DNA from: Ridgeia piscesae
Taxonomy: Eukaryota; Annelida; Polychaeta; Sabellida; Siboglinidae
NCBI GenBank assembly: GCA_025642075.2
Contig: JAODUO010000635.1
Coordinates: forward strand, 148,501 to 212,500
Reading direction: 5' to 3'
DNA: 64,000 bases
Within the stretch, counting starts at the first letter, position 1; each line of letters opens with the position of its first letter. Shown here one piece after another: positions 9,296 to 57,194 of the stretch. The notes under the pieces were generated by a model. The model ran no database searches and was not told the origin of the DNA. It saw only the letters and a program-made list of their open reading frames with translations. A program made the translations under genes and the position numbers.

Positions 9296-9416
9296 ATATT
9301 CAGCCGACACAGGTCACCTATGAGGACGAGAACAATCAATTGATGCTTCGATGGGCCATAGGCTGCATTTCGTTCACCATCTTCATGTTGGCTCTGGCAA
9401 TATGGATGCAGGCTAA
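9296..9416 (+). CDS. RPTP exon 1 (visible): transmembrane exon
   Basis: The acceptor is ttggactgcag and the donor is gctaa|gtaagc. The exon enters after one base of a split codon and leaves two bases (AA). It encodes a short extracellular stalk (IQPTQVTYEDENNQ) followed by a hydrophobic helix of about 20 residues (WAIGCISFTIFMLALAIWM, residues 20-38) ending in QAK. This is the expected single-pass helix of a type I receptor phosphatase. Earlier exons must exist, because the reading frame begins mid-codon and no signal peptide or ectodomain is present. The exon sits directly against the 42-bp minisatellite. Confidence 0.85.
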
Positions 9417-9420
9417 GTAA

Positions 9421-9990
9421 GCTTAGCAATTGGAAATACACACTGCACCTGCAAGTGAAATAATGTTTACTGTACTTGCTATTTTGAACCATTAAATGAC
9501 ACAATATGATTTCATACAATGATGAAACTATTGATATGTTTTGTGACGATAACTTGAGTGACGTCATTCAGATTAGTTCAAGGAAATCTATCCTTTTTTG
9601 GTTATTTTTAAAGGTAACTATTACAGTGACAGTGTCTGAAGAAACTCTTTGGAAGAAGAAATGTACGATTAATATGTATGATGATGACCCTTTTGAATTG
9701 CTTTCTGATCACAGAACTTGTAGTCAATTAGTTGGACGTATATTACTGTTGAATTGATGAAAACGTTCCCTCTGTGGAAGATGTTTTTGTGAAGATCCTT
9801 CTTGGTCGTCCTCCTGGCCTTACCTCAACACATTGTGTTTACACCTTCTGTGTACATGTTATCACTTCATGGTGGTTGTAATTAGTTTAACAACACACCC
9901 AGCTGCTGGGCTGATGCATCTGTGGCCGCTAACTTACATGAGCTGTAGACATCGCAACTACAATTACAACTTGGTTTACTTGTTGTTTTC
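9421..9990. other. Intron 1, nothing further recognised
   Basis: Unique intronic sequence between the transmembrane exon and exon 2. No repeat array or additional exon signal was seen. Confidence 0.6.
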
Positions 9991-9996
9991 TGCAAG

Positions 9997-10064
9997 GAAA
10001 AATATTTCGTCCTGGAGGCAAGCAAGAAAAATGAAGACAGCAAAAAGGCGTAAATCTCTAAAGG
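9997..10064 (+). CDS. RPTP exon 2: basic stop-transfer / juxtamembrane
   Basis: The acceptor tgttttctgcaag and donor aagg|gtgagt frame a 68-nt exon that completes the split Lys codon from exon 1. It encodes a strongly basic stretch (KNISSWRQARKMKTAKRRK, then SLK), as expected for the cytoplasmic stop-transfer segment immediately after a transmembrane helix. It leaves one base (G), which matches the entry phase of exon 3. Confidence 0.85.
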
Positions 10065-26175: not shown

Positions 26176-26724
26176 AATAGTCATACTTATAAAGTGTGAG
26201 GACAAGTGATTATAAATGTTATTGAAGTATAATTGTTCACTGGTTGCTAAGTTCTAGTCTAGCGTATCCTAAACAAATGTCTACAAACGGAGACAAGGTC
26301 ATGCTGAACTAGCTCCACACTGGCTGTACAAACAACAATTAAGTCATTATGAAAACTGGGAAAAACCTACATGTCTATGATAGCAATAGTATATCAATAT
26401 AATATTATGGTGACGTTGCATTTTTTCTTACATACAGTATAAACAACTGTGATGTTGTATTTTATATACAGTATAAACAACTGTGATGTTGTGTTTTACA
26501 TAGAGTATAAACAAACTGGGTAGGTGTGTTATTTACATTAGTATTACCATTTTGTTTTAATTACTATGGAGCGGTCTTTTTCACGGCTTCTCCAGAATCA
26601 AACAAAAAATTTATTAAACACAATAAACACGAGTTTATTATAATATATCATTGTCTCAATTGCATCATCACAGGAAATAGAAGCTGCTTGTACCACAACA
26701 AGCATGCACTTCCTAATGCTAGAT

Positions 26725-27540
26725 ATTCATCTTGCCCATGTGACATCTGTACTTGTTTCACACAGATAGTCATCTTGCCCATGTGACATCTGTACTTGTT
26801 TCACACAGATGTTCATCTTGCCCATGTGACATCTGTACTTGTTTCACACAGATGTTCATCTTGCCCATGTGACATGCTGTACTTGTTTCACACAGATAGT
26901 AATCTTGCCCATGTGAGATCTGTACTTGTTTCACACAGATAGTCATATTGCCCATGTGACATCTGTACTTGTTTCACACAGATGTTCATCTTGCCCATGT
27001 GACATCTGTACTTGTTTCACACAGATGTTCATCTTGCCCATGTGACATCTGTACTTGTTTCACACAGATAGTCATCTTGCCCATGTGACATCTGTACTTG
27101 TTTCACACAGATGTTCATCTTGCCCATGTGACATCTGTACTTGTTTCACACAGATGTTCATCTTGCCCATGTGACATCTGTACTTGTTTCACACAGATAG
27201 TAATCTTGCCCATGTGAGATCTGTACTTGTTTCACACAGATGTTCATCTTGCCCATGTGACATCTGTACTTGTTTCACACAGATGTTCATCTTGCCCATG
27301 TGACATTTGTACTTGTTTCACACAGATGTTCATCTTGCCCATGTGACATCTGTACTTGTTTCACACAGATAGTAATCTTGCCCATGTGAGATCTGTACTT
27401 GTTTCACACAGATGTTCATCTTGCCCATGTGACATCTGTACTTGTTTCTCACAGATAATCATCTTGCCCATGTGACATCTGTACTTGTTTCACACAGATG
27501 TTCATCTTGCCCATGTGACATCTGTACTTGTTTCACACAG
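26725..27540. repeat. 43-bp minisatellite flush with the exon 5 acceptor (about 19 units)
   Basis: Units read atgttcatcttgcccatgtg + acatctgtacttgtttcaca + cag. The last cacacag is the true acceptor of exon 5, and every unit therefore ends in the same pyrimidine tract plus AG. Confidence 0.95.
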
Positions 27541-27611
27541 GTGACCACTGTAGAGTGGTGCTGGAACCGAAGGAGAGCTCCACTGACTACATCAATGCCT
27601 GCTACATTGAC
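27541..27611 (+). CDS. RPTP exon 5: D1 DYINA motif
   Basis: The acceptor ttgtttcacacag is identical to the end of every unit of the preceding 43-bp array, and the donor is attgac|gtaagc. Read from the split Ser codon, the exon encodes DHCRVVLEPKES and then STDYINACYID, corresponding to the conserved RPTP segment DxxRVxL...SDYINAxYIDGY. It ends in phase 0. Confidence 0.92.
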
Positions 27612-30350: not shown

Positions 30351-31526
30351 AAAATGGCTTTATATGGCACATTGTCATCAATGTATGGCAAATTTGTTAC
30401 TGTGTGCAACATGCCCTACATGGCACACCGTCAGTGTTGTTTATGTATGCTACATGCCCTACATGTTGCACACTGTCAGTGGTGTTACTGTGTGCTACAT
30501 GCCCTACATTGCACACTGCCAATGTTGTTACTGCATGCTGCATGCCCTTTAGAGCACACTGTCAATGTTGTTACTGTGTTACAGGCCCGACATGCCACAC
30601 TGTCAATGTTGTTACTGTGTTACAGGCGCCACACTGTCAATGTTGTTACTGTGTTACAGGCGCCACACTGTCAATGTTGTTACTGTGTTACAGGCGCCAC
30701 ACTGTCAATGTTGTTACTGTGTTACAGGCCCCACATGTCACACTGTCAATGTTGTTACTGTGTTACAGGCCCCACACACCACACTGTCAATGTTGTTACT
30801 GTGTTACAGGCCCCACATGTCACACTGTCAATGTTGTTACTGTGTTACAGGCCCCACACACCACACTGTCAATGTTGTTACTGTGTTACAGGCCCCACAT
30901 GTCACACTGTCAATGTTGTTACTGTGTTACAGGCCCCACACACCACACTGTCAATGTTGTTACTGTGTTACAGGCGCCACACTGTCAATGTTGTTACTGT
31001 GTTACAGGCCCCACATGTCACACTGTCAATGTTGTTACTGTGTTACAGGCCCCACACGTCACACTGTCAATGTTGTTACTGTGTTACAGGCCCCACACAC
31101 CACACTGTCAATGTTGTTACTGTGTTACAGGCCCCACATGTCACACTGTCAATGTTGTTACTGTGTTACAGGCCCCACACACCACACTGTCAATGTTGTT
31201 ACTGTGTTACAGGCCCCACATGTCACACTGTCAATGTTGTTACTGTGTTACAGGCCCCACACACCACACTGTCAATGTTGTTACTGTGTTACAGGCCCCA
31301 CATGTCACACTGTCAATGTTGTTACTGTGTTACAGGCCCCACACACCACACTGTCAATGTTGTTACTGTGTTACAGGCCCCACATGTCACACTGTCAATG
31401 TTGTTACTGTGTTACAGGCCCCACACGCCACACTGTCAATGTTGTTACTGTGTTACAGGCCCCACATGTCACACTGTCAATGTTGTTACTGTGTTACAGG
31501 CCCCACACGTCACACTGTCAATGACT
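30350..31526. repeat. 41-bp minisatellite carrying the exon 7 acceptor and coding start (about 23 units)
   Basis: Units read gccccacatgtcacactgtc + aatgttgttactgtgttaca + g. The piece after each ttacag is the first ~27 bases of exon 7 (Gly-Pro-Thr-X-His-Thr-Val-Asn), and the piece before it is the acceptor. Short 34-bp variants (gcgccacactg) lie at the left and in the centre. Units alternate between acatgt and acacac forms. The rightmost copy is the functional exon. Confidence 0.96.
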
Positions 31527-31597
31527 TCTGGCAGATGATCTGGCAAGAGAAAGTGTACTGCATCATCATGGTTACCAAACTCTTTGAGCATGCCAGA
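31500..31597 (+). CDS. RPTP exon 7: D1 HTVNDFW motif
   Basis: The acceptor tgtgttacag and donor gccaga|gtaagt bound a 98-nt exon reading GPTRHTVNDFWQMIWQEK and then VYCIIMVTKLFEHAR. This is the RPTP segment GPxxxTVxDFWRMIWEQ...IVMLTxLxExGR. The first 27 coding bases are repeated about 23 times upstream in the 41-bp array, each copy with its own acceptor. The final copy is taken as the exon because only it continues into DFWQMIW. Confidence 0.93.
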
Positions 31598-32199
31598 GTA
31601 AGTTCAGTTCTCATCATGTCTCAAATAGCTTTCACTATAATCATTTGTAATTTACATGTCATTTAAATGTCAAGTCACAACCTATAACATAGGTTTACTG
31701 TGACCTTTACACATAGAATAATATGTTTAAGAATAAAATCAACATATACCTAAGAAGGGCATATAGATAGATAGGTTGGATTCTGAATAAGCGAGAGGGC
31801 TTCCTAGTCCACCTGCCATCTACAGTTGATTCTCTAGGTGGCAATCTTGTTAATGTTAAAGAAGATTTTCTCCAAAGTCATAAGCATCCTACATAGAACT
31901 ACAGTGAGGATGGGACCAATTGGGAGTTTATCTGGACCACCAATTTAAAGAACCGGTTACACCCTCTACCTGAGGATCACCAGAAAACCCCTGAGCCATG
32001 TTGAAACTGACTCCCACTGTGCCCCATTGACGTCACGCCTCTTCCTTTGGATCTGCACATGAATACAGAACAAATCACCACTTATAATGTAGTTGCATAG
32101 CCACTATTCAACTAATCAACAGACATTTTACATTACTTTTAGTTAGAGGCTTTCTTAACTGAAAATTAGATTCTTGGGAATTACTTGTGTAACAGCAAG

Positions 32200-32765
32200 A
32201 ATGTAAGCAGTACTATCACAATGAACACGATCACTACAGAGACAGATGTTTGTGTTTGTTTAGCAACAGTGTGAGAAGTACTAACACAATGAACACAATC
32301 ACTACAGAGATGTTTGTGTTTGTTTAGAAACAGTGTGAGAAGTACTAACACAATGAACACAATCACTACGGAGATGTTTGTGTTTGTTTAGCAACAGTGT
32401 GAGAAGTACTGGCACAATGAACACAATCACTACAGAGATGTTTGTGTTTGTGTTTGTTTAGCAACAGTGTGAGAAGTACTAACACAATGAACACAATCAC
32501 TACAGAGATGTTTGTGTTTGTTTAGCAACAGTGTGAGAAGTACTAACACAATGAACACAATCACTACGGAGATGTTTGTGTTTGTTTAGCAACAGTGTGA
32601 GAAGTACTGGCACAATGAACACAATCACTACAGAGATGTTTGTGTTTGTGTTTGTTTAGCAACAGTGTGAGAAGTACTGGCACAATGAACACAATCACTA
32701 CAGAGATGTTTGTGTTTGTTTAGCAACAGTGTGAGAAGTACTGGCACAATGAACACGGCCGCTAC
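32200..32765. repeat. 64-bp minisatellite carrying the exon 8 acceptor and coding start (about 8 units)
   Basis: Units read caacagtgtgagaagtacta + acacaatgaacacaatcact + acagagatgtttgtgtttgt + ttag. They contain the tttgtttag acceptor plus about 45 bases of exon 8 (Gln-Gln-Cys-Glu-Lys-Tyr...). Some units have an extra ttgtgt. A two- to three-unit super-repeat (…ggcacaatg / …aacacaatg) is visible. Confidence 0.93.
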
Positions 32766-32840
32766 AGAGACATAGAAGTGTGGCTGAAGAACACACACAT
32801 ACTCTCTGATTTCTACGTTCGCACATTCAGAATCAAAAAG
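32724..32840 (+). CDS. RPTP exon 8: D1 central strand segment
   Basis: The acceptor tttgtttag and donor aaaaag|gtaaac give a 117-nt, phase 0-0 exon of 39 codons: QQCEKYWHNEHGRYRDIEV followed by WLKNTHILSDFYVRTFRIKK. It matches the family segment KCxxYWP...YGDIxVxLxxxxxxxxYxIRTFxxxK. The first ~45 coding bases recur in the 64-bp array immediately upstream. Confidence 0.9.
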
Positions 32841-33569: not shown

Positions 33570-35036
33570 CTTCCAGTGATACCTGTGTCTTCTGTCTTCC
33601 TGTGACTTGTGTGTTCTGTGTCTTCTGTCTGCCTCTGACCTGTGTCTTCTGTCTGCCTCTGACCTGTGTGTTCTGTCTGCCTCTGACCTGTGTGTTCTGT
33701 CTGCCTCTGACCTGTGTGTTCTGTGTCTTCTGTCTGCCTCTGACCTGTGTGTTCTGTGTCTTCAGTCTGCCTGTGAGTGACCTATGTCTTCTGTGTCTTT
33801 TGTCTGTCAGTAACCTGTGTCCACAGTCTACCTGTGTCTTCTGTGTCTATTGTCTGCCTGTGACCTGTGTGTTGTCTCCCGTCTGCCTGTGACCTGTGTA
33901 TTGTCTTCTGTCTGCCTGTGACCTGTGTGTTGTCTTCTGTCTGCCTGTGACCTGTGTGTTGTCTTCTGTCTGCCTGTGACCTGTGTGTTGCCTTCTGTCT
34001 GCCTGTGACCTGTGTATTGTCTTCTGTCTGCCTGTGACCTGTGTGTTGCCTTCTGTCTGCCTGTGACCTGTGCATTGTCTTCTGTCTGCATGTGACCTGT
34101 GTATTGTCTTCTGTCTGCCTGTGACCTGTGTGTTGTCTTCTGTCTGCCTGTGACCTGTGTGTTGCCTTCTGTCTGCCTGTGACCTGTGTGTTGCCTTCTG
34201 TCTGCCTGTGACCTGTGTGTTGTCTTCTGTCTGCCTGTGACCTGTGTGTTGCCTTCTGTCTGCCTGTGACCTGTGTGTTGTCTTCTGTCTGCCTGTGACC
34301 TGTGTGTTGTCTTCTGTCTGCCTGTGACCTGTGTGTTGTCTTCTGTCTGCCTGTGACCTGTGTGTTGTGTTCTGTCTGCCTGTGACCTGTGTGTTGTTGC
34401 CTTCTGTCTGCCTGTGACCTGTGTGTTGTCTTCTGTCTGCCTGTGACCTGTGTGTTGTCTTCTGTCTGCCTGTGACCTGTGTGTTGCCTTCTGTCTGCCT
34501 GTGACCTGTGTGTTGTCTTCTGTCTGCCTGTGACCTGTGTGTTGTCTTCTGTCTGCCTGTGACCTGTGTGTTGTCTTCTGTCTGCCTGTGACCTGTGTGT
34601 TGTGTTCTGTCTGCCTGTGACCTGTGTGTTGTTGCCTTCTGTCTGCCTGTGACCTGTGTGTTGTCTTCTGTCTGCCTGTGACCTGTGTGTTGCCTTCTGT
34701 CTGCCTGTGACCTGTGTGTTGTCTTCTGTCTGCCTGTGACCTGTGTGTTGTTGCCTTCTGTCTGCCTGTGACCTGTGTGTTGTCTTCTGTCTGCCTGTGA
34801 CCTGTGTGTTGTCTTCTGTCTGCCTGTGACCTGTGTGTTGTCTTCTGTCTGCCTGTGACCTGTGTGTTGTCTTCTGTCTGCCTGTGACCTGTGTGTTGTC
34901 TTCTGTCTGCCTGTGACCTGTGTGTTGTCTTCTGTCTGCCTGTGACCTGTGTGTTGTTGCCTTCTGTCTGCCTGTGACCTGTGTGTTGTCTTCTGTCTGC
35001 CTGTGACCTGTGTGTTGTCTTCTGTCTGCCTGTATA
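33570..35036. repeat. 29-bp minisatellite running into the exon 9 acceptor (about 45 units)
   Basis: Units read ttgtcttctgtctgcctgtg + acctgtgtg. The final unit changes to ctgcctgtatag, supplying the AG of the exon 9 acceptor; the other units have no YAG at that place. The array thus provides a pyrimidine-rich tract over 1 kb long. The left 250 bp are a diverged form (tgcctctgacc). Confidence 0.95.
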
Positions 35037-35037: not shown

Positions 35038-35189
35038 GTTGGCTGTGCTGAGGAGCGCACTGTCACACAGTTCCAGTTTGTCTGCTGGACGGACCACGAC
35101 TGTCCAAACCCCAGCTCACTGCTCGAGTACCGCAGACGCATCCGGGCATTTGTGAAGGACCAGCCAGGACCCCTTGTGGTACACAGCGG
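35038..35189 (+). CDS. RPTP exon 9: D1 WPD loop and start of the catalytic loop (Cys to Ser)
   Basis: The acceptor gtctgcctgtatag and donor cagcgg|gtcagt frame 152 nt. The translation starts VGCAEERTVTQFQFVCW and ends QPGPLVVHSG. The WPD loop reads W256-T257-D258-H-D-C-P, so the general-acid Asp is kept while the Pro is Thr. The catalytic signature VVHCSAGxGR starts VVHSG: the Cys codon is AGC at 35185-35187 (S289). The segment FxxxxWxDHxxP...LLxYxxxVRxFxxxxxGPLVVH identifies the domain securely. The Cys-to-Ser change needs only one base (TGC to AGC). Confidence 0.92.
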
Positions 35190-35194
35190 GTCAG

Positions 35195-35475: not shown

Positions 35476-35656
35476 TCAAGTAGTGTTCTAGCTACCTTCT
35501 AAAAGATGTCAACATATGGGTCTCGTAATTGCTAAATCCTAATTGAAGCAGTTACATATATGACAGCTATACATACATGGTCTTGTGGAATGACTTGACA
35601 GCTGTTCATCCAGTAATTAGTTTCTGTGACGTTCCCTTGTGCTGTGGCCATTGCAG

Positions 35657-35792
35657 CACTGGTGTAGGCCGCACTGGGGCCTTCATTGCTGTGGACGCCA
35701 TGCTGGAGAGATTGTCTGTGGTGAAGACTGTGGACATCTTCAACTATGTCACTTCACTGAGACGCTGCCGGCAGAACATCATCAGGACTCTG
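35657..35792 (+). CDS. RPTP exon 10: D1 P-loop remainder
   Basis: The acceptor gtggccattgcag and donor actctg|gtaagt bound 136 nt. The first base completes G290 and the exon continues TGVGRTGAFIAVDAMLER, then LSVVKTVDIFNYVTSLRRCR, then QNIIRTL. This is the remainder of the PTP signature (GxGRTGxFIAxDxM...VDIxNxVxxLRxxRxxMVQT). The phosphate-binding Arg is kept at R295. The Q-loop Gln (QTxxQ) is replaced by R333. Confidence 0.93.
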
Positions 35793-35795: not shown

Positions 35796-36080
35796 AGTAC
35801 CTGGCAGTGGGTACTTCTCAGTGGGTACCTAGCTGTGGGCATCTGGCAGTGAGTACCTGGCAGTGGGTACTTCTCAGTGGGTACCTAGCTGTGGGCATCT
35901 GGCAGTGGGTACCTGGCAGTGGGTACCTAGCAGTGGGTACCTGGCCATGGCTACTTGGCCATGGGTACCTAGCCTTGGGTACCTGGCCTTGGGTACCTGG
36001 CCTTGAGTACCTGGCCATGGGTACCTGACCGTGGGTACCTGGCAGTGCGTAACCTGGCTGTGGGTACCTGGCTGTGGGTC
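35796..36080. repeat. 14-bp-type repeat starting at the exon 10 donor
   Basis: From the donor onward (gtaagtacctggcagtgggt) the intron is built of gtgggtacctggca-like words of about 14 bp, so the 5' splice-site-proximal sequence has been repeated about 20 times. Confidence 0.88.
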
Positions 36081-36313
36081 CTATCGATCACAATTACAGT
36101 TGTAATAATATTTTTGACTGTAGATGGTTAGTTTAATTAACAGCTGTGATTCACTTACTCTAGTCAATTGTTTTTATTCTACCAAGGCTGGTTCATTTAC
36201 ATCAGTGAATTGTTTTGAATCCTAACTGCATATGTGGTTTGTTTACCTCAATCAGTTGTTTATTATCATGACACAGAGAATGTTGACTTACATCACAAGA
36301 TTATTTGATGTCA

Positions 36314-39300
36314 ACACAAGATGTGTGTTTGTGTTACAGCAACAGTATGAGTTTGTCTACACAAGATGTGTGTTTGTGTTACAGCAACAGCATGAGTTCG
36401 TCTACACAAGATGTGTGTTTGTGTTACAGCAACAGTATGAGTTCGTCTACACAAGATGTGTGTTTGTGTTACAGCAACAGTACGAGTTCGTCTACACAAG
36501 ATGTGTGTTTGTGTTACAGCAACAGTATGAGTTCGTCTACACAAGATGTGTGTTTGTGTTACAGCAACAGTATGAGTTCGTCTACACAAGATGTGTGTTT
36601 GTGTTACAGCAACAGTATGAGTTCGTCTACACAAGATGTGTGTTTGTGTTACAGCTACAGTATGAGTTCGTCTACACAAGACGTGTGTTTGTGTTACAGC
36701 AACAGTACGAGTTCGTCTACACAAGACGTGTGTTTGTGTTACAGCAACAGTACGAGTTCGTCTACACAAGACGTGTGTTTGTGTTACAGCAACAGTACGA
36801 GTTCGTCTACACAAGACGTGTGTTTGTGTTACAGCAACAGTACGAGTTCGTCTACACAAGACGTGTGTTTGTGTTACAGCAACAGTACGAGTTCGTCTAC
36901 ACAAGACGTGTGTTTGTGTTACAGCAACAGTACGAGTTCGTCTACACAAGACGTGTGTTTGTGTTACAGCAACAGTACGAGTTCGTCTACACAAGACGTG
37001 TGTTTGTGTTACAGCAACAGTACGAGTTCGTCTACACAAGACGTGTGTTTGTGTTACAGCAACAGTACGAGTTCGTCTACACAAGACGTGTGTTTGTGTT
37101 ACAGCAACAGTACGAGTTCGTCTACACAAGATGTGTGTTTGTGTTACAGCAACAGTACGAGTTCGTCTACACAAGATGTGTGTTTGTGTTACAGCAACAG
37201 TACGAGTTCGTCTACACAAGATGTGTGTTTGTGTTACAGCAACAGTACGAGTTCGTCTACACAAGATGTGTGTTTGTGTTACAGCAACAGTACGAGTTCG
37301 TCTACACAAGATGTGTGTTTGTGTTACAGCAACAGTACGAGTTCGTCTACACAAGATGTGTGTTTGTGTTACAGCAACAGTACGAGTTCGTCTACACAAG
37401 ATGTGTGTTTGTGTTACAGCAACAGTACGAGTTCGTCTACACAAGATGTGTGTTTGTGTTACAGCAACAGTACGAGTTCGTCTACACAAGATGTGTGTTT
37501 GTGTTACAGCAACAGTACGAGTTCGTCTACACAAGATGTGTGTTTGTGTTACAGCAACAGTACGAGTTCGTCTACACAAGATGTGTGTTTGTGTTACAGC
37601 AACAGTACGAGTTCGTCTACACAAGATGTGTGTTTGTGTTACAGCAACAGTACGAGTTCGTCTACACAAGATGTGTGTTTGTGTTACAGCAACAGTACGA
37701 GTTCGTCTACACAAGATGTGTGTTTGTGTTACAGCAACAGTACGAGTTCGTCTACACAAGATGTGTGTTTGTGTTACAGCAACAGTACGAGTTCGTCTAC
37801 ACAAGATGTGTGTTTGTGTTACAGCAACAGTACGAGTTCGTCTACACAAGATGTGTGTTTGTGTTACAGCAACAGTACGAGTTCGTCTACACAAGATGTG
37901 TGTTTGTGTTACAGCAACAGTACGAGTTCGTCTACACAAGATGTGTGTTTGTGTTACAGCAACAGCATGAGTTCGTCTACACAAGATGTGTGTTTGTGTT
38001 ACAGCAACAGCATGAGTTCGTCTACACAAGATGTGTGTTTGTGTTACAGCAACAGCATGAGTTTGTCTACACAAGATGTGTGTTTGTGTTACAGCAACAG
38101 CATGAGTTCGTCTACACAAGATGTGTGTTTGTGTTACAGCAACAGCATGAGTTCGTCTACACAAGATGTGTGTTTGTGTTACAGCAACAGTATGAGTTCG
38201 TCTACACAAGATGTGTGTTTGTGTTACAGCAACAGTATGAGTTCGTCTACACAAGATGTGTGTTTGTGTTACAGCAACAGTATGAGTTCGTCTACACAAG
38301 ATGTGTGTTTGTGTTACAGCAACAGTATGAGTTCGTCTACACAAGATGTGTGTTTGTGTTACAGCAACAGTATGAGTTCGTCTACACAAGACGTGTGTTT
38401 GTGTTACAGCAACAGTACGAGTTCGTCTACACAAGACGTGTGTTTGTGTTACAGCAACAGTACGAGTTCGTCTACACAAGATGTGTGTTTGTGTTACAGC
38501 AACAGCATGAGTTCGTCTACACAAGATGTGTGTTTGTGTTACAGCAACAGTATGAGTTCGTCTACACAAGACGTGTGTTTGTGTTACAGCAACAGTACGA
38601 GTTCGTCTACACAAGATGTGTGTTTGTGTTACAGCAACAGTATGAGTTTGTCTACACAAGATGTGTGTTTGTGTTACAGCAACAGCATGAGTTCGTCTAC
38701 ACAAGATGTGTGTTTGTGTTACAGCAACAGCATGAGTTCGTCTACACAAGATGTGTGTTTGTGTTACAGCAACAGTATGAGTTCGTCTACACAAGATGTG
38801 TGTTTGTGTTACAGCAACAGTATGAGTTCGTCTACACAAGATGTGTGTTTGTGTTACAGCAACAGCATGAGTTCGTCTACACAAGATGTGTGTTTGTGTT
38901 ACAGCAACAGCATGAGTTCGTCTACACAAGATGTGTGTTTGTGTTACAGCAACAGTATGAGTTCGTCTACACAAGACGTGTGTTTGTGTTACAGCAACAG
39001 TACGAGTTCGTCTACACAAGATGTGTGTTTGTGTTACAGCAACAGTATGAGTTCGTCTACACAAGATGTGTGTTTGTGTTACAGCAACAGCATGAGTTCG
39101 TCTACACAAGATGTGTGTTTGTGTTACAGCAACAGCATGAGTTCGTCTACACAAGATGTGTGTTTGTGTTACAGCAACAGTACGAGTTCGTCTACACAAG
39201 ATGTGTGTTTGTGTTACAGCAACAGTACGAGTTCGTCTACACAAGATGTGTGTTTGTGTTACAGCAACAGTATGAGTTCGTCTACACAAGATGTGTGTTT

Positions 39301-39783
39301 GTGTTACAGCAACAGCATGAGTTCGTCTACACAAGATGTGTGTTTGTGTTACAGCAACAGCATGAGTTCGTCTACACAAGATGTGTGTTTGTGTTACAGC
39401 AACAGTATGAGTTCGTCTACACAACATGTGTGTTTGTGTTACAGCAACAGATGAGTTCGTCTACACAAGATGTGTGTTTGTGTTACAGCAACAGTCATGA
39501 GTTCGTCTACACAACATGTGTGTTTGTGTTACAGCAACAGTACGAGTTCGTCTACACAAGATGTGTGTTTGTGTTACAGCAACAGTACTGAGTTCGTCTA
39601 CACAAGATGTGTGTTTGTGTTACAGCAACAGTATGAGTTCGTCTACACAACATGTGTGTTTGTGTTACAGCAACAGTACGAGTTCGTCTACACAAGATGT
39701 GTGTTTGTGTTACAGCAACAGTATGAGTTCGTCTACACAAGATGTGTGTTTGTGTTACAGCAACAGTATGAGTTCGTCTACAC
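36314..39783. repeat. 45-bp minisatellite carrying the exon 11 acceptor and coding start (76 units)
   Basis: Units read caacagtatgagttcgtcta + cacaagatgtgtgtttgtgt + tacag. From the first caacag at 36340 to exon 11 at 39761 there are 76 units. Each contains tgtgttacag plus the first ~23 bases of exon 11 (QQYEFVYT). Variation is confined to a few sites (tat/tac/cat before gag, aga-tgt/cgt). Three single-base indels (near 39450, 39491 and 39584) break an otherwise strictly modulo-3 array. Three frames stay open for more than 1000 codons; these are not separate genes. Confidence 0.97.
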
Positions 39784-39910
39784 CACCATGGCGATGTACC
39801 TGCGTTGTGGCTCCACTGTCATCACTGTCAAACAACTCCCATTCGTTGTGCAGAAGTTGTCAATGAAAAATCCTCAGACACACAAGAGTGGCTTTGACAA
39901 GGAATTCAAG
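39761..39910 (+). CDS. RPTP exon 11: D1 end and D1-D2 linker
   Basis: The acceptor tttgtgttacag and donor ttcaag|gtgagc give 50 codons in phase 0-0: QQYEFVYTTMAMYLRCGSTV, then ITVKQLPFVVQKLSMKN, then PQTHKSGFDKEFK. It matches the end of D1 (EQYxFxYxxxxEYxxxGxTxI) and the start of the D2 lead-in (GFxxEFxxL). The acceptor and the first ~23 coding bases are the seed of the 45-bp, 76-copy array upstream. I chose this last copy because only it runs on into unique coding sequence. Confidence 0.92.
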
Positions 39911-40620: not shown

Positions 40621-42790
40621 CAAGTGCTGTTGATGTCATGTGGTGTATCACGTCACGCCATGCTGTGCTACTGCCATGTGGTGTGTGATGTCATGCCATG
40701 CTGTGCACGTGCCTTGATCATGGTGTGTCATGTCATGCCATGCTGTGCACTGCCATGTGGTGTGTGATGTCATGCCATGCTGTGCACTGCCATGTGGTGT
40801 GTGATGTCATGCCATGCTGTGTACTGCCATGTGGTGTGTGATGTCACGCCATGCTGTGTACTGCCATGTGGTGTATGATGTCATGCCATGCTGTGTACTG
40901 CCATGTGGTGTGTGATGTCACGCCATGCTGTGTACTGCCATGTGGTGTGTGATGTCACGCCATGCTGTGTACTGCCATGTGGTGTATGATGTCATGCCAT
41001 GCTGTGTACTGCCATGTGGTGTATGATGTCACGCCATGCTGTGTACTGCCATGTGGTGTATGATGTCATGCCATGCTGTGTACTGCCATGTGGTGTGTGA
41101 TGTCACGCCATGCTGTGTACTGCCATGTGGTGTATGATGTCATGCCATGCTGTGTACTGCCATGTGGTGTGTGATGTCACGCCATGTGTGTACTGCCTAT
41201 GTGGTGTATGATGTCATGCCATGCTGTGTACTGCCATGTGGTGTGTGATGTCATGCCATGCTGTGTACTGCCATGTGGTGTGTGATGTCATGCCATGCTG
41301 TGTACTGCCTTGTGGTGTATGATGTCATGCCATGCTGTGTACTGCCATGTGGTGTGTCATGTCATGCCATGCTGTGCACTGCCATGTGGTGTGATGTCAT
41401 GCCATGCTGTGTACTGCCATGTGGTGTATGATGTCATGCCATGCTGTGTACTGCCATGTGGTGTGTGATGTCATGCCATGCTGTGTACTGCCTTGTGGTG
41501 TGTGATGTCATGCCATGCTGTGTACTGCCATGTGGTGTGTGATGTCATGCCATGCTGTGTACTGCCATGTGGTGTGTCATGTCATGCCATGCTGTGTACT
41601 GCCTTGTGGTGTATGATGTCATGCCATGCTGTGTACTGCCATGTGGTGTGTGATGTCATGCCATGCTGTGCACTGCCATGTGGTGTGTGATGTCATGCCA
41701 TGCTGTGCACTGCCATGTGGTGTGTGATGTCATGCCATGCTGTGTACTGCCATGTGGTGTGTGATGTCATGCCATGCTGTGTACTGCCATGTGGTGTGTG
41801 ATGTCATGCCATGCTGTGTACTGCCATGTGGTGTGTGATGTCATGCCATGCTGTGTACTGCCATGTGGTGTTGATGTCATGCCATGCTGTGTACTGCCAT
41901 GTGGTGTGTGATGTCATGCCATGCTGTGTACTGCCTTGTGGTGTATGATGTCATGCCATGCTGTGCACTGCCATGTGGTGTGTGATGTCATGCCATGCTT
42001 GTGCACTGCCATGTGGTGTGTGATGTCATGCCATGCTGTGTACTGCCATGTGGTGTGTGATGTCATGCCATGCTGTGTGCACTGCCATGTGTGTGTGATG
42101 TCATGCCATGCTGTGTACTGCCATGTGGTGTGTGATGTCATGCCATGCTGTGTACTGCCATGTGGTGTGGTCATGTCATGCCATGCTGTGTACTGCCATG
42201 TGGTGTGTGATGTCATGCCATGCTGTGTACTGCCATGTGGTGTGTGATGTCATGCCATGCTGTGTACTGCCTTGTGGTGTATGATGTCATGCCATGCTGT
42301 GTACTGCCATGTGGTGTATGATGTCATGCCATGCTGTGTACTGCCATGTGGTGTGTGATGTCATGCCATGCTGTGCACTGCCATGTGGTGTATGATGTCA
42401 TGCCATGCTGTGCACTGCCATGTGGTGTGTGATGTCATGCCATGCTGTGCACTGCCATGTGGTGTGTGATGTCATGCCATGCTGTGTACTGTCATGTGGT
42501 GTGTGATGTCATGCTATGCTGTATACTGCCATGTGGTGTGATGTCATGCCATGCTGTGTACTGCCATGTGGTGTGTGATGTCATGCCATGCTGTGTACTG
42601 TCATGTGGTGTGTGATGTCATGCCATGTTGTGTACTGCCATGTGGTGTGTGATGTCATGCCATGTTGTATACTGCCATGTGGTGTGTGATGTCATGCCAT
42701 GCTGTGTACTGCCATGTGGTGTGTGATGTCATGCCATGCTGTGTACTGCCATGTGGTGTGTGATGTCGTAACATACTGTGTACTGTGGTG
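40621..42790. repeat. 37-bp minisatellite running to the exon 12 acceptor (about 58 units)
   Basis: Units read tgccatgtggtgtgtgatgt + catgccatgctgtgtac. The final partial unit tgtactgtggtgtgttgcag is the exon 12 acceptor. It abuts the preceding 38-bp array with almost no unique DNA between. Confidence 0.95.
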
Positions 42791-42798: not shown

Positions 42799-42898
42799 AC
42801 TCTGTGCAGTGTGGTGCCCAAGTTGACGGTGGGGGAGTGTGCGGGGGGACATCGCGCTGAGAACAGACACAAGAGTCGAGACATCATGCTGCAGCCCC
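42799..42898 (+). CDS. RPTP exon 12: start of D2
   Basis: The acceptor gtgtgttgcag and donor cagcccc|gtcagt bound 100 nt reading TLCSVVPKLTVGECAGGHRA, then ENRHKSRDIMLQP. This matches the D2 lead-in pattern (F..LN......A...N..KNR...ILP.D). The KNR triplet is K-S-R here. It leaves one base, completed by exon 13. Confidence 0.82.
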
Positions 42899-45503: not shown

Positions 45504-45584
45504 CCCTGTCTTGTTGAAATACCCCAGGTTTTGGCCTACCTGTGTGGGTTGAGTTGGTTCTTTAAGGTCCCCCGTCTGTTGTAG
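45504..45584. repeat. Partial duplication of the exon 15 5' edge
   Basis: The stretch gaaataccccaggttttggc + ctacctgtgtgggt occurs at about 45515-45549 and again at the start of exon 15 (45584-45617). The upstream copy reads gttgagttgg where the exon has gactgggtcc, and its acceptor-equivalent is cttgttg, not gttgtag. Confidence 0.85.
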
Positions 45585-45707
45585 AAATACCCCAGGTTTT
45601 GGCCTACCTGTGTGGGTGACTGGGTCCACTATGGTCCCCTCTCCGTGTGCCTGGTGCGGGAAGAAGAGACACCAACGATGACAACGAAGGTCTTCCAGAT
45701 AAGTAAG
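45585..45707 (+). CDS. RPTP exon 15: D2 YWP...YGP segment
   Basis: The acceptor cgtctgttgtag is preferred to the nearby ccccag because only it keeps phase 0 and gives KYPRFWPTCVGDWVHYGPLS, then VCLVREEETPTMTTKVFQISK. This matches the D2 segment CPxYWPxxxxxxYGPxxVxxxxxxxxxxxxxRxFxIxN. The donor is agtaag|gtaggt and the length is 41 codons. A partial second copy of the exon's 5' edge lies about 70 bp upstream. Confidence 0.88.
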
Positions 45708-48918: not shown

Positions 48919-49115
48919 GTGTTGGCGTCACTGCCAGCGTCCAGTGCCAGTGGCCAGCCGGTCATTCGCACCGTGAAGATGTTTACCCTGCGCAGCTGGC
49001 CGTCCAGTCAGAAGATACCCACAGCTGCCACCGGACTCATAGAACTCCTGACAAAGGTCGAGAACTGGCACTTGAAGCACTGCCCAGGACGCATCCCTAC
49101 CTGTGTCATCTCCAG
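48919..49115 (+). CDS. RPTP exon 17: D2 WPD-equivalent loop to catalytic position
   Basis: The acceptor ctggttcccag and donor atctccag|gtaact bound 197 nt. The translation begins VLASLPASSASGQPVIRTVK, continues MFTLRSWPSSQKIP, and ends GRIPTCVIS with two bases of R616. It fits the D2 segment VxxxxxxxWPxxxxP...LxxLxxxVExW...GRxPxVVHC. The WPD-like loop is W577-P-S, lacking the Asp, and the catalytic Cys position is Ser (TCC at 49111-49113, S615). The exon's 3' edge and donor are copied about 15 times in the following 40-bp array. Confidence 0.9.
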
Positions 49116-49720
49116 GTAACTTTACTGACAGCATCCCCACCTGTGTCATCTCTAGGTAACTTTACTGACAGCATCCCCACCTGTGTCATCTCTAGGTAAC
49201 TTTACTGACAGCATCCCCACCTGTGTCATCTCTAGGTAACTTTACTGATAGCATCCCCACCTGTGTCATCTCTAGGTAACTTTACTGATAGCATCCCCAC
49301 CTGTGTCATCTCTAGGTAACTTTACTGATAGCATCCCCACCTGTGTCATCTCTAGGTAACTTTACTGATAGCATCCCCACCTGTGTCATCTCCAGGTAAC
49401 TTTACTGACAGCATCCCCACCTGTGTCATCTCCAGGTAACTTTACTGATAGCATCCCCACCTGTGTCATCTCTAGGTAACTTTACTGATAGCATCCCCAC
49501 CTGTGTCATCTCTAGGTAACTTTACTGATAACATCCCCACCTGTGTCATCTCTAGGTAACTTTACTGACAGCATCCCCACCTGTGTCATCTCTAGGTAAC
49601 TTTACTGACAGCATCCCCACCTGTGTCATCTCTAGGTAACTTTACTGATAGCATCCCCACCTGTGTCATCTCTAGGTAACTTTACTGACAGCAATACTGG
49701 CTGGCTGGTGACATTTCTAG
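49091..49720. repeat. 40-bp minisatellite derived from the exon 17 donor edge (about 15 units)
   Basis: Units read gcatccccacctgtgtcatc + tctaggtaactttactgaca. The first part is the last ~25 coding bases of exon 17 (gcatccctacctgtgtcatc tccag) and the second is its donor and intron start. Each unit thus holds a 5' splice site. A looser ctggctgatgacat-type tail continues to about 50000. Confidence 0.95.
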
Positions 49721-50084
49721 ATAACTGTTGCTGGCAGCGTTACTGGCTGGTTGATGACATATTTAGATAACTCTTACCGACACTGTCACTGGCTGACCAG
49801 TGTCATCTTTAGGTAACTTTTACTTGACCTTCTCTGGCTGACTGATGTCATCTGTAGGTAACTATTACTGTCACCTTCTCTGGCTGACTGATGTCATCTG
49901 TAGGTAACTATTACTGTCGGCTGCCCTCGCTGACCAGTGTCATCTTTAGGTAATTTTTACTTGACCTTCTCTGGCTGAATTATGACATCTCTATAAAACT
50001 ACTACTGAAAATCATTTCATCATTATTCCCTCAATAACATCTTTTATGATATATTTATTATTGAGCACTTATTGTCATAAATCA

Positions 50085-52643
50085 CATTGATGTGGATGTT
50101 ACTGCAGGAATGGTGTGAAACATTGTGGCTGCTACTGTGTCATAAGTGACATTGGTGTGGATGTCATTGTAGGAATGGTGTGAATCGCTGTGGCTGCTAC
50201 TGTGTCATAAGTGACATTGGTGTGGATGTCATTGTAGGAATGGTGTGAATCGCTGTGGCTGCTACTTTTGTCATAAGTGATATTGGTGTGGATGTCATTG
50301 CAGGAATGGTGTGAATCATTGTGGCTGCTACTGTGTCATAAGTGACATTGGTGTGGATGTCATTACAGGAATGGTGTGAATCGCTGTGGCTGCTACTGTG
50401 TCATAAGTGACATTGGCGTGGATATTATTGCAGGGATGGTGTGAATCATTGTGGATGCAACTTTGTCATAAGTGACATTGGTGTGGATGTCATTGTAGGA
50501 ATGGTGTGAATCATTGTGGCTGCTACTGAGTCATAAGTGACATTGGTGTGGATGTCATTACAGGAATGGTGTGAATCATTGTGGCTGCTACTGAGTCATA
50601 AGTGACATTGGTGTGGATGTCATTACAGGAATGGTGTGAATCATTGTGGCTGCTACTGAGTCATAAGTGATATTGGTGTGGATGTCATTACAGGAATGGT
50701 GTGAATCATTGTGGATGCAACTTTGTCATAAGTGACATTGGTGTGGATGTCATTACAGGAATGGTGTGAATCATTGTGGCTGCTACTGAGTCATAAGTGA
50801 CATTGGTGTGGATGTCATTACAGGAATGGTGTGAATCATTGTGGCTGCTACTGAGTCATAAGTGACATTGGTGTGGATGTCATTACAGGAATGGTGTGAA
50901 TCATTGTGGCTGCTACTGAGTCATAAGTGACATTGGTGTGGATGTCATTACAGGAATGGTGTGAATCATTGTGGCTGCTACTGAGTCATAAGTGATATTG
51001 GTGTGGATGTCATTACAGGAATGGTGTGAATCATTGTGGATGCAACTTTGTCATAAGTGACATTGGTGTGGATGTCATTACAGGAATGGTGTGAATCATT
51101 GTGGCTGCTACTGAGTCATAAGTGACATTGGTGTGGATGTCATTACAGGAATGGTGTGAATCATTGTGGCTGCTACTGAGTCATAAGTGACATTGGTGTG
51201 GATGTCATTACAGGAATGGTGTGAATCATTGTGGCTGCTACTGAGTCATAAGTGATATTGGTGTGGATGTCATTACAGGAATGGTGTGAATCATTGTGGC
51301 TGCTACTGAGTCATAAGTGACATTGGTGTGGATGTCATTACAGGAATGGTGTGAATCATTGTGGCTGCTACTGAGTCATAAGTGACATTGGTGTGGATGT
51401 CATTACAGGAATGGTGTGAATCATTGTGGCTGCTACTGAGTCATAAGTGACATTGGTGTGGATGTCATTACAGGAATGGTGTGAATCATTGTGGCTGCTA
51501 CTGAGTCATAAGTGACATTGGTGTGGATGTCATTACAGGAATGGTGTGAATCATTGTGGCTGCTACTGAGTCATAAGTGACATTGGCGTGGATATTATTG
51601 CAGGGATGGTGTGAATCGCTGTGGCTGCTACTGTGTCATAAGTGACATTGGCGTGGATATTATTGCAGGGATGGTGTGAATCGCTGTGGCTGCTACTGTG
51701 TCATAAGTGACATTGGCGTGGATATTATTGCAGGAATGGTGTGAATCATTGTGGCTGCTACTGTGTCATAAGTGACATTGGCGTGGATATTATTGCAGGG
51801 ATGGTGTGAATCGCTGTGGCTGCTACTGTGTCATAAGTGACATTGGCGTGGATATTATTGCAGGGATGGTGTGAATCGCTGTGGCTGCTACTGTGTCATA
51901 AGTGACATTGGCGTGGATATTATTGCAGGAATGGTGTGAATCGCTGTGGCTGCTACTGTGTCATAAGTGACATTGGCGTGGATATTATTGCAGGAATGGT
52001 GTGAATCATTGTGGCTGCTACTGTGTCATAAGTGACATTGGCGTGGATATTATTGCAGGAATGGTGTGAATCATTGTGGCTGCTACTGAGTCATAAGTGA
52101 CATTGGCGTGGATATTATTGCAGGAATGGTGTGAATCATTGTGGCTGCTACTGTGTCATAAGTGACATTGGTGTGGATATTATTGCAGGAATGGTGTGAA
52201 TCGCTGTGGCTGCTACTGTGTCATAAGTGACATTGGTGTGGATGTCATTGCAGGAATGGTGTGAATCATTGTGGCTGCTACTGTGTCATAAGTGACATTG
52301 GTGTTGATGTGATTGCAGGAATGGTGTGAATCAATGTGGCTACTACTTTGTCATAAGTGACCTTGGTGTGGATTTCATTGCAAGAATGGTGTGAATCATT
52401 GTGGCTGCTACTGTGTCATAAGTGACATTGGTGTGAATGTCATTGCAGGAATGGTGTGAATCGCTGTGGTTGCTACTTTGTCATAAGTGACATTGGTGTA
52501 GATGTCATTGCAGGAATGGTGTGAATCATTGTGGCTGCTACTTTGTCATAAGTGACATTGGTGTAGATGTCATTGCAGGAATGGTGTGAATCATTGTGGA
52601 TGCAACTTTGTCATAAGTGACATTGGCGTGGATGTCATTGTAG
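50085..52643. repeat. 65-bp minisatellite carrying the exon 18 acceptor and P-loop coding start (about 39 units)
   Basis: Units read gaatggtgtgaatcattgtg + gctgctactgtgtcataagt + gacattggtgtggatgtcat + tacag. They repeat the acceptor plus about 40 bases of exon 18 (Asn-Gly-Val-x-x-Cys-Gly-Cys-Tyr-Cys-Val-Ile). Blocks of variants are clustered: ctactgag in the middle (in-frame TGA), ctactgtg and gcgtggatatt to the right. Confidence 0.96.
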
Positions 52644-52779
52644 GAATGGTGTGAGTCGTTGTGGCTGCTACTGTGTCATAAGCATCGCCTGGGACAAACT
52701 GCGTGAGGAGGGATCTGTTGACGTATTTCACGCGGTCAAGATGGTCAAGATGAATAGACCTCAATTAGTGGACAACCTG
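52644..52779 (+). CDS. RPTP exon 18: D2 P-loop remainder
   Basis: The acceptor gatgtcattgtag and donor aacctg|gtaggt bound 136 nt. The first base completes R616, then NGVSRCGCYCVISIAWDKLR, then EEGSVDVFHAVKMVKMN, then RPQLVDNL. This matches the D2 signature LNGxGRSGxFCxxxxxxExL...VDVFxAVKxLRxxRPxMVxxxxQY. The phosphate-loop Arg is kept (R621). The exon's first ~45 bases are the seed of the 65-bp array upstream. Confidence 0.92.
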
Positions 52780-53279: not shown

Positions 53280-56200
53280 TGTAGCTGTGGTGGAGCTGGT
53301 GGTGGAATAACCCAAAGTGATGTGTGTTGAAGTAGTAGATTCAGGTGTAGCTGGTGATGGAATAACCCAAAGTGATGTGTGTTGAAGTAGTAGATTCCAA
53401 TGTAGCTGGTGATGGAATAACCCAATGTGGTGTGTGTTGAAGTAGTAGATTCAGGTGTAGCTGGTGATGGAATAACTCACAGTGGTATGAATGGAAGTAG
53501 ATTCCATTGTAGTTGGTGATGGAATAACCCAATGTTGTGTGTGTTGAAGTAGTAGATTCCAGTGTAGCTGGTGATGGAATAACTCACAGTGGTGTGAATG
53601 GAAGTAGATTCCAATGTAGCTGGTGATGGAATAACCCAATGTTGTGTGTGTTGAAGTAGTAGATTCAGTGTAGCTGGTGATGGAATAACTCACAGTGGTG
53701 TGAATGGAGGTAGATTCCAATGTAGCTGGTGATGGAATAACCCAATGTTGTGTGTGTTGAAGTAGTAGATTCAGGTGTAGCTGGTGATGGAATAACTCAC
53801 AGTGGTGTGAATGGAAGTAGATTCCAATGTAGCTGGTGATGGAATAACCCAATGTGGTGTGTGTTGAAGTAGTAGATTCAGGTGTAGCTGGTGATGGAAT
53901 AACTCACAGTGGTGTGAATGGAAGTAGATTCCAATGTAGCTGGTGATGGAATAACCCACAGTGGTGTGAATGGAAGTAGATTCCCAGTGTAGCTGGTGAT
54001 GGAATAACTCACAGTGGTGTGAATGGAAGTAGATTCCATGTAGCTGGTGATGGAATAACCCAATGTGTGTGTGTGTTGAAGTAGTAGTTTCCCGGGTGTA
54101 GCTGGTGATGGAATAACCCAATGTGGTGTGTGTTGAAGTAGTAGATTCCAGTGTAGCTGGTGATGGAATAACCCAATGTGGTGTGTGTTGAAGTAGTAGA
54201 TTCAGGTGTAGCTGGTGATGGAATAACCCAGTGGGTGTGTGTTGAAGTAGTAGATTCAGGTGTAGCTGGTGATGGAATAACCCAATGTTGTGTGTGAATG
54301 AGAGTAGTAGATTCCAGGTGTAGCTGGTGGTGGAATAACCCAAAATGGTGTGTGTTGAAGTAGTAGATTCCGGTGTAGCTGGTGATGGAATAACTCACAG
54401 TGGTGTGAATGGAAGTAGATTCCAATGTAGCTGGTGATGGAATAACCCAATGTTGTGTGTGTTGAAGTAGTAGATTCAGGTGTAGCTGGTGATGGAATAA
54501 CTCACAGTGGTGTGAATGGAAGTAGATTCCAATGTAGCTGGTGATGGAATAACCCAAATGTGGTGTGTGTTGAAGTAGTAGATTCAGGTGTAGCTGGTGA
54601 TGGAATAACTCACAGTGGTGTGAATGGAAGTAGATTCCAATGTAGCTGGTGATGGAATAACCCAATGTTGTGTGTGTTGAAGTAGTAGATTCAGGTGTAG
54701 CTGGTGATGGAATAACTCACAGTGGTGTGAATGGAAGTAGATTCCAATGTAGCTGGTGATGGAATAACCCAATGTTGTGTGTGTTGAAGTAGTAGATTCA
54801 GGTGTAGCTGGTGATGGAATAACTCACAGTGGTGTGAATGGAAGTAGTTTCCCAAAGTGTAGCTGGTGATGGAATAACCCAATGTTGTGTTTTGTTGAAG
54901 TAGTAGATTCAGGTGTAGCTGGTGATGGAATAACCCAATGGTGTGTGTGTTGAAGTAGTAGATTCAGGTGTAGCTGGTGATGGAATAACCCAATGTGGTG
55001 TGTGTTGAAGTAGTAGATTCAGGTGTAGCTGGTGATGGAATAACTCACAGTGGTGTGAATGGAAGTAGATTCCAATGTAGCTGGTGATGGAATAACCCAA
55101 AATGGTGTGTGTTGAAGTAGTAGATTCAGGTGTAGCTGGTGATGGAATAACTCACAGTGGTGTGAATGGAAGTAGATTCCAATGTAGCTGGTGATGGAAT
55201 AACCCAATGTTGTGTGTGTTGAAGTAGTAGATTCAGGTGTAGCTGGTGATGGAATAACTCACAGTGGTGTGAATGGAAGTAGATTCCAATGTAGCTGGTG
55301 ATGGAATAACCCAATGTTGTGTGTGTTGAAGTAGTAGATTCAGGTGTAGCTGGTGATGGAATAACTCACAGTGGTGTGAATGGAAGTAGATTCCAATGTA
55401 GCTGGTGATGGAATAACCCAATGTTGTGTGTGTTGAAGTAGTAGATTCAGGTGTAGCTGGTGATGGAATAACTCACAGTGGTGTGAATGGAAGTAGATTC
55501 CAATGTAGCTGGTGGTGGAATAACCCAATGTTGTGTGTGTTGAAGTAGTAGATTCCAATGTAGCTGGTGGTGGAATAACCCAAGTGTGTGTTGAAGTAGT
55601 AGATTCCAGTGTAGCTGGTGATGGAATAACTCACAGTGGTGTGAATGGAAGTAGATTCCAGTGTAGCTGGTGATGGAATAACCCAATGTTGTGTGTGTTG
55701 AAGTAGTAGATTCGGGTGTAGCTGGTGATGGAATAACTCACAGTGGTGTGAATGGAAGTAGATTCCAATGTAGCTGGTGGTGGAATAACCCAATGTTGTG
55801 TGTGTTGAAGTAGTAGATTCCAATGTAGCTGGTGGTGGAATAACCCAATGTGATGTGTGTTGAAGTAGTAGATTCCAGTGTAGCTGGTGATGGAATAACT
55901 CACAGTGGTGTGAATGGAAGTAGATTTCAATGTAGCTGGTGATGGAATAACCCAATGTGGTGTGTGTTGAAGTAGTAGATTCAGGTGTAGCTGGTGATGG
56001 AATAACTTACAGTGGTGTGAATGGAAGTAGATTTCAATGTAGCTGGTGATGGAATAACCCAATGTGGTGTGTGTTGAAGTAGTAGATTCAGGTGTAGCTG
56101 GTGATGGAATAACTCACAGTGGTGTGAATGGAAGTAGATTTCAATGTAGCTGGTGATGGAATAACCCAATGTGGTGTGTGTTGAAGTATTAGATTCAGGT

Positions 56201-56290
56201 GTAGCTGGTGATGGAATAACTCACAGTGGTGTGAATGGAAGTAGATTCCATTGTAGTTGGTGGGGGAATAACTCACAATTGTGTGTGTTG
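53280..56290. repeat. 107-bp higher-order repeat of two ~53-bp monomers (about 28 dimers)
   Basis: Monomers share tgtagctggtgatggaataa and then differ: one continues ctcacagtggtgtgaatgga (no second 'gtagta'), the other cccaatgttgtgtgtgttga + agtagtagattca. They mostly alternate strictly, giving a 107-bp period, with occasional doublets of one type. Lies between exons 18 and 19. Confidence 0.95.
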
Positions 56291-56927
56291 AAGTAGATTC
56301 TTGTTTAGCTGCTGGTGGTGGTATTATGTTGGAAGGTTTGGGGGGTTCATGTTTATGTTATGCAATTGTATGTGCAGTGTTGAAGTAACAATTACTTCTC
56401 TGTTCAAAGTAATCACAAAATCTCATGCTATTATTATAGTTGAATAGACCAAACGTTTTTACTACAATTTTTGCTACAATGTTTTGTATGCATGATATAA
56501 ATTCCTTGTCAAACACGCATGCTTTTGATTGTGCAGCCTGAAGTGAAATACCCTGAGAGTTGGTGTATGTTGGACTAGTTCAGTTAAATTGATGCAGGGG
56601 GCCATGGCCTGGTCCAGTTCAGTCAACAGCCTCTTCACTTCACTAAAGTACATGGTCACCTTTTTATTGATTTTGACCTGTCCATAGTGAAGATATTTAT
56701 AAGAAGTACACATGAAAATCCAATATGGCTGCCGTTTTCATGGGACAAATCTTAATAAAATACACTGTATCATGGTTACCTATATTGACATACAGTGCAA
56801 ATTTCAACTTGATTGGTAGAGAAGAATTAAGTGAAATGATATTTCTGAGTAAACAGTTGCCTTATAGTGCGATCTCCAGAACATACACAGCATGAACCAG
56901 CCATCACTGAGATGTTGTTTCTTGCAG

Positions 56928-57194
56928 ACGGAGTACATCTACTGCTACACCTTCATTATGGTGCTGCTGGACTACATACAGGCCCCAGGCCACAGACCAT
57001 TGCCACGCACCGAGAGTGGATCGACACGGACCAACCGTGTGATGCCGGGCACTTTCGAGAAGAGGAACATGTTAACGGAGACTGACAAGGGTGTGGCAGG
57101 TTGGGTCCAACTGTTGCCACTAGTTACTGGAAATGTTCTTTTCCAAGTCTCTGTTTACTTTGCTTATGGTCGCCCGTTGCAGGGCTGTGAGTAA
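56928..57194 (+). CDS. RPTP exon 19: end of D2 and C-terminal tail
   Basis: The acceptor ttgtttcttgcag opens TEYIYCYTFIMVLLDYIQ, the final D2 helix (usually QYxFCYxxxLEYL). It continues into a basic, Ser/Thr-rich tail (HRPLPRTESGSTRTNR...). The frame stays open to a TGA... stop region ending at 57194 (stop codon TAA/TGA not distinguished in function). A plausible donor, ggcag|gttggg at 57100, could instead splice the tail to later exons. I see no clear polyadenylation signal just after the stop; the nearest AATAAA noticed is at about 58185. The D2 assignment is strong; the 3' end is uncertain. Confidence 0.75.
   Translation, partial: TEYIYCYTFIMVLLDYIQAPGHRPLPRTESGSTRTNRVMPGTFEKRNMLTETDKGVAGWVQLLPLVTGNVLFQVSVYFAYGRPLQGCE

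Follow-up and report, generated by a model that had tools for sequence, protein, structure and literature searches.

Mirage-like minisatellites at the exon-intron junctions of an annelid receptor-type tyrosine phosphatase gene

Introduction

Why should the tandem repeats of a single gene stop, again and again, at its splice junctions? The question is raised by a 64,000-nucleotide stretch of DNA from the annelid Ridgeia piscesae (positions 148501-212500 of contig JAODUO010000635.1, within a 628-Mb assembly; hereafter the window), in which a gene that appears to encode a receptor-type tyrosine phosphatase carries ten minisatellite arrays that overlap a splice junction or stop 0-13 bp from it. 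From their structure we identify these arrays as repeats of the same kind as the "mirages" of amphioxus, in another phylum. As to their origin, we consider it probable (about 0.7) that they are mirage-type minisatellites grown from tandem duplications that would be seeded anywhere and tolerated at junctions, without machinery specific to splice sites.

Mirages, tandem repeats lying over exon-intron boundaries, were named in amphioxus Adh3, and are described as well in passages on globins (PMC3087553) and PGBD5 (PMC3902484). A class of repeat that a sequence-only reading of the window had thought undescribed therefore already has a name. The Adh3 mirages (Canestro et al. 2002, as described in PMC3087553) have units of 10-72 bp and regular splicing; more generally, passages of both reports give splicing of amphioxus mirages as normal and their lengths as unstable, and globin mirages have been proposed as a source of new introns (PMC3087553).

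Methods

Minisatellites were taken from Tandem Repeats Finder (TRF) calls, merged, with a period of at least 10 and a score of at least 100; copy numbers rest on one assembly. Each splice junction was compared with the sequence one period away. Letters A-S denote the 19 exons placed here (in earlier numbering A was exon 1, E 5, G 7, H 8, I 9, J 10, K 11, L 12, Q 17, and R 18). All exons and arrays described in the host gene lie on the plus strand and, unless stated otherwise, coordinates are those of the window.

Arrays were compared with chance either as points or as one-unit seeds, and either within their own introns or with introns pooled. In the own-intron one-unit null, the array is shrunk to one unit whose start may fall anywhere overlapping its own intron, which is the fairest treatment of arrays growing from pre-existing intron sequence. 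The host gene had been selected for its striking look; the glycogen debranching enzyme gene is the next gene recognised upstream of it on the contig. For myosin, 75 family matches were available, loci were cut for 30 of these, and L041 and L043, which hold the same exon as L042, were dropped, leaving 28 loci.

Results and discussion

Junction arrays of the host gene

After merging, TRF yields 25 minisatellites in the window, of which 21 fall within the host gene, and arrays account for 49.5% of the window versus 29% and 24% of its flanks on the contig. Ten of those in the gene lie at splice junctions, eight at acceptors (exons A, E, G, H, I, K, L, and R) and two at donors (exons J and Q), such that both sides are affected. 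TRF and the junction comparison confirm an array at each of the ten junctions named by the sequence-only reading; its figure of at least nine introns has to be lowered to eight, because J-K and Q-R hold two arrays each.

In five of the arrays, identity between periods passes through the junction and ends 23-47 bases inside the exon. Four of these lie over acceptors, namely those of exon G (31500..31597; array 30394..31523, 41-bp unit, 28 copies, 24 coding bases), exon H (32724..32840; array 32194..32770, 64/70 bp, ~9 copies, 47 coding bases), exon K (39761..39910; array 36310..39783, 45 bp, 77 copies, 23 coding bases), and exon R (52644..52779; array 50073..52682, 65 bp, 40 copies, 39 coding bases), and one over the donor of exon Q (48919..49115; array 49091..49693, 40 bp, 15 copies, 25 coding bases, with related 46-bp repeats continuing to 50008). 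Identity also passes the junction and ends inside the exon in a duplication over the acceptor of exon O (45585..45707) that had been missed earlier, consisting of two copies (45516 and 45584; 45516..45617 in all) at 68-bp spacing with 33 coding bases. In the spanning arrays, unique coding sequence continues only from the copy joined to the exon body.

Two further arrays carry the splice dinucleotide in their unit. Before exon E (27541..27611), identity stops exactly at the AG (array 26721..27540, 43 bp, 19 copies), and after exon J (35657..35792), a 14-bp unit that resembles the donor begins 4 bp past the exon (array 35797..36079, 20 copies). Over these seven arrays, 195 of the 202 copies scored, a set that includes the used copies, retain the dinucleotide (AG in 19/19 for E, 24/26 for G, 8/8 for H, 74/74 for K, and 39/40 for R; GT in 15/15 for Q and 16/20 for J). 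The remaining three arrays only abut their acceptors, identity ending before the AG and 4-13 bases from the exon. The array at exon A (9296..9416) occupies 4203..9295 (42 bp, ~121 copies), with a consensus unit lacking the AG and identity that stops ~4 bp before the exon; TRF ends this array at 9225, 70 bp short of the exon, because its last copies are irregular, and it was counted as touching by sequence comparison. The array before exon I (35038..35189) occupies 33583..35033 (29 bp, ~41-49 copies) and stops 4 bp short of the exon, and that before exon L (42799..42898) occupies 40637..42785 (37 bp, 58 copies) and stops 13 bp short. The sequence-only reading had arrays ending exactly at acceptors or beginning at donors, each with a different unit that includes the splice signal and often 20-50 coding bases. 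Proximity to the junction, a separate unit for each array, and many copies of the junction are all upheld; the dinucleotide lies within the unit of seven arrays and outside that of A, I, and L, and coding bases are present in five and absent from the other five.

The array stretches before acceptors A (8007-9294, the last 1.29 kb), I (33844-35033, 1190 bp), and L (40637-42785, 2149 bp) contain no AG dinucleotide. The lack is striking and would fit a need to keep AG out of the interval from branch point to acceptor, but shuffles of the units gave P values of 0.13, 0.72, and 0.11, respectively, and avoidance is not claimed. An attempt to detect polarity of copies outward from the junction gave no information, fixed-phase slicing having slipped at indels.

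Arrays can occupy nearly the whole of an intron: of the 3,528 bp of intron Q-R, 64 bp lie outside arrays. The arrays of introns I-J (35274-35391) and K-L (39957-40619) share the motif AGGTCCACTCAG and thus represent one unit family in two introns. Across the K array (36226-39591), two frames of the plus strand and one of the minus strand stay open for more than 1,000 codons. The joins of the reconstructed protein appear to resemble those of its relatives, and no array-like insert was seen at the junctions in aligned sequences of Lingula, Capitella, Owenia, Argopecten, and Lamellibrachia, the last of which covers the second domain only, with D/E and the start of I in gapped stretches.

Relation to amphioxus mirages

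The traits given for mirages recur in the host gene, in that the repeat unit reaches over the exon-intron boundary (coding bases in five arrays, the splice dinucleotide in seven, with A, I, and L only abutting), AG or GT is kept in the copies, and both donor and acceptor sides are affected. As in amphioxus Adh3, minisatellite units span the boundary; unlike what passages on Adh3 describe, the host is an annelid, ten arrays occur in one gene, copy numbers reach ~120, and the arrays are known from sequence alone. Passages on the amphioxus globins BflGb6 and BflGb9 likewise report affected 5' and 3' boundaries, AG/GT in many copies, and concerted copies, although their units are of 150-160 bp, with 6 copies in one BflGb6 haplotype and 3 in another (PMC3087553). 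Lancelet PGBD5 is similar in having tandem repeats over splice sites and differs in unit length (60 and 108 bp) and copy number (2-7), as far as passages of PMC3902484 describe it. Within annelids, the intron-1 minisatellites of earthworm metallothionein are also intronic but, in passages of PMC12783039, are not described as derived from splice junctions, and no annelid mirage was present among the matches listed in open-licence PubMed Central literature.

By structure, then, the host-gene arrays are of the same kind as mirages. The range reported in those passages, which is a range and not a definition, is cephalochordate, and the lophotrochozoan host falls outside it. What is new relative to passages of the mirage reports is the phylum, the copy number, and the density of arrays per gene; with many high-copy arrays per gene in a distant phylum, mirages are therefore no longer a cephalochordate peculiarity. 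They also offer natural experiments on splice-site choice, with dozens of near-identical acceptors preceding one exon.

Chance seeding or edge bias

The strength of the excess at exon edges in the host gene depends on the null chosen. As one-unit seeds, five arrays span a junction, compared to 3.1 expected within their own introns (P = 0.17) and 1.1 with introns pooled (P = 0.004). The excess of touching arrays shrinks under looser limits, to 11 versus 6.6 expected (P = 0.005) when the limit is widened to 50 bp for points in their own introns, and to 10 versus 6.5 expected (P = 0.036) when it is widened to 40 bp for one-unit seeds in their own introns.

The glycogen debranching enzyme gene (contig 48742-127446, L006-L014) has junction arrays of its own. 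Both borders could be placed for 17 of its introns; of the 20 arrays there, 5 touch a junction and 3 span one, which compares with 5.0 and 3.5 expected for one-unit seeds in their own introns, 4.3 touching expected for points in their own introns (P = 0.39), and 1.8 spanning expected for pooled one-unit seeds (P = 0.27). These counts have limits: two long gaps in which exons could not be placed are excluded, and with them one spanning donor array (59794-60000) that would have favoured edges; one of the "spanning" cases rests on an overlap of one base; and several of the junctions were picked automatically and are uncertain. For the two genes together (41 arrays), 8 spanning arrays are observed and 6.6 expected as one-unit seeds in their own introns (P = 0.33).

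Myosin exons on four other contigs show the same junction-array architecture. Of the 30 arrays in the 28 loci (85.6 kb, 61 exons), 4 touch a junction versus 2.9 expected (P = 0.34), a count made by hand that includes L039 at an exon read by eye, and an expectation that exons missed by tblastn would raise. Read by eye, three of the four span the junction with ~25-38 coding bases (L025, L035, and L039; 2.0 expected, P of three or more 0.33) and one abuts it (L044). These figures replace a first myosin test confined to family-matched exons, which found fewer array ends per kb near exons (4 in 12.1 kb within matches or at most 60 bp from them, versus 49 in 78.4 kb beyond); it was set aside because exon interiors had counted as near and unlisted exons as far. 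Two small kinesin stretches contained no arrays. When 56 array units from the contig were crudely scanned for motifs, there was no excess of strong acceptors (3 versus 3.4 expected) or strong donors (5 versus 4.7 expected). Several unlinked genes carry junction arrays, roughly as many as would be expected if seeds fell at random in introns, with bias possible.

Such seeding would proceed as follows. Tandem duplications of 14-65 bp would arise in introns at many places, several of them across an exon-intron junction, probably through slippage or end-joining between short direct repeats. Unequal exchange would then enlarge and homogenise them, up to ~120 copies overall and to 77 in the largest junction-spanning array. 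Duplications lying wholly inside an exon would be removed by selection, and those overlapping a junction tolerated, since they leave unharmed the copy that adjoins the exon body; this copy would presumably be the one spliced, paired by exon definition with the other end of the exon. With exonic arrays removed and junction-overlapping ones tolerated, arrays would therefore seem to end at splice sites without any specific machine; exon edges may in addition be slightly favoured. Eight of 9 bases agree between the intronic flank and the exonic end of the unit at both K and R, the kind of trace expected of slippage or end-joining between direct repeats.

Several results weigh against this chance-seeding account, and most of them would favour its main competitor, namely that exon edges are true birth hotspots of minisatellites in this lineage, whether by slippage at T/G-rich acceptor tracts or by break repair coupled to transcription or splicing. 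Partial copies could also have left the shared bases at K and R, and of the four array edges compared for direct repeats, G has none and L025 is uninformative owing to a further partial copy. In the host gene, 10 of 21 arrays touch a junction, where 2.6 are expected for points in their own introns (P = 2.7e-6; 9 of 21, P = 3.9e-5, with array A held to its TRF end) and 4.4 for one-unit seeds in their own introns (P = 0.0014). With introns pooled, the corresponding P values are 1.8e-11 for points and 1.1e-6 for one-unit seeds (1.6 expected), and in the debranching enzyme gene pooling lowers the expected number of touching arrays to 0.7 for points (P = 0.0006) and to 2.5 for one-unit seeds (P = 0.09). 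Touching arrays of the two genes together number 15 versus 9.4 expected as one-unit seeds in their own introns (P = 0.0135). In addition, the own-intron null takes short introns as given, and some of a real edge bias may be hidden in it; several acceptor units are T/G-rich in their intronic part. The pooled nulls favour edges, and a mild edge bias may therefore exist.

Against a hotspot stand the spanning arrays, which are at chance in the two genes, the agreement with expectation in the debranching enzyme gene (own introns) and its P of 0.09 under pooled one-unit seeds, the myosin loci, and the lack of excess splice motifs in array units. Furthermore, the modest touching excess in the two genes is driven by the host gene, the one picked for its look. 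We consequently regard a hotspot as unlikely, and the recurrent exon-edge mechanism that had been preferred to chance is not established by spanning counts at chance and touching counts modestly above it. Similarly unlikely is the broader proposal that minisatellites arise preferentially at junctions across this annelid lineage, by a process linked to transcription or splicing, that copies of its own splice sites gradually come to make up an intron, and that mirages are general in animal genomes and were missed as short-read assemblies collapse them. A repeat-saturated genome easily mimics targeting of exon edges, and the seed-level null used here provides a simple means of testing such targeting genome-wide.

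Two other explanations concern what the arrays do and whether they are real. The decoy splice sites might be used, such that the arrays, above all the 45-bp array at K, yield isoforms of different protein length, as the AG intact in every scored K copy and a consensus period that is a multiple of three would suggest. Of the 76 K acceptors found, only the last four (the used one and the three before it) lead into exon K in frame and free of stops, while a frame shift and a stop near 39589 block the others; dozens of in-frame acceptors, as once considered, were thus rejected. The other spanning periods (41, 64, 65, and 40) are not multiples of three, aligned relatives have no insert at K, the first open frame of the K array ends in a stop before exon K and has no homologue found in the protein database, and passages on amphioxus mirages report that splicing is not disturbed (PMC3087553, PMC3902484). 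Use of the decoys is thus hardly credible. That the assembler inserted or multiplied the copies is only slightly easier to believe. Assemblies readily err in the copy number of long arrays, and the draft of one amphioxus mirage is reported, in a passage of PMC3087553, to have been aberrantly assembled, but the copies here carry sequence variants, units differ between junctions, the pattern recurs on other contigs, and passages of PMC3902484 report the PGBD5 repeats as confirmed by re-examined and new reads.

Host gene and its surroundings

The 19 exons rebuilt on the plus strand, from A to S (56928..57089, the last placed, with an uncertain 3' end), have GT-AG borders and continuous phase and give 714 amino acids. 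The product matches PF00102 in 2 stretches (E 3.8e-117), its top PDB match is PTPRS, also in 2 stretches, and its closest solved relatives are PTPRS and kin. Exon A is hydrophobic as read from its sequence, consistent with a transmembrane segment; we therefore identify the product, from its predicted sequence, as a receptor-type tyrosine phosphatase with a transmembrane segment and two tandem PTP domains. Exon A had been numbered as the first exon, which is hardly tenable for an exon encoding the transmembrane segment. The closest named relatives of the protein are lophotrochozoan (Lingula, Capitella, Owenia, and Lamellibrachia), the Lamellibrachia satsuma protein being 71% identical across 22% of the query.

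Alignments place a serine in both phosphatase domains (35180-35670, VVHSGTGVGRTG; 49090-52660, CVISRNGVSRCG) at the position of the catalytic cysteine. In the first domain, four aligned relatives keep the cysteine, and in the second all five covering relatives have serine; the product may be a pseudophosphatase. The counterpart of exon S in protein P0042 of Lamellibrachia satsuma continues into a coding repeat of ~12 residues (QAQGQQQVTQSM-like) that is absent from the window gene.

The right end of the window gave no match in a phage collection. Two retrotransposon-like fragments lie in the window. The one at 1540-2109 shares 83% identity with a protein from the siboglinid annelid Ridgeia piscesae and has no Pfam match itself, although some of its listed relatives carry the reverse-transcriptase family PF00078; the second, at 60507-61130, matches PF00078 directly.

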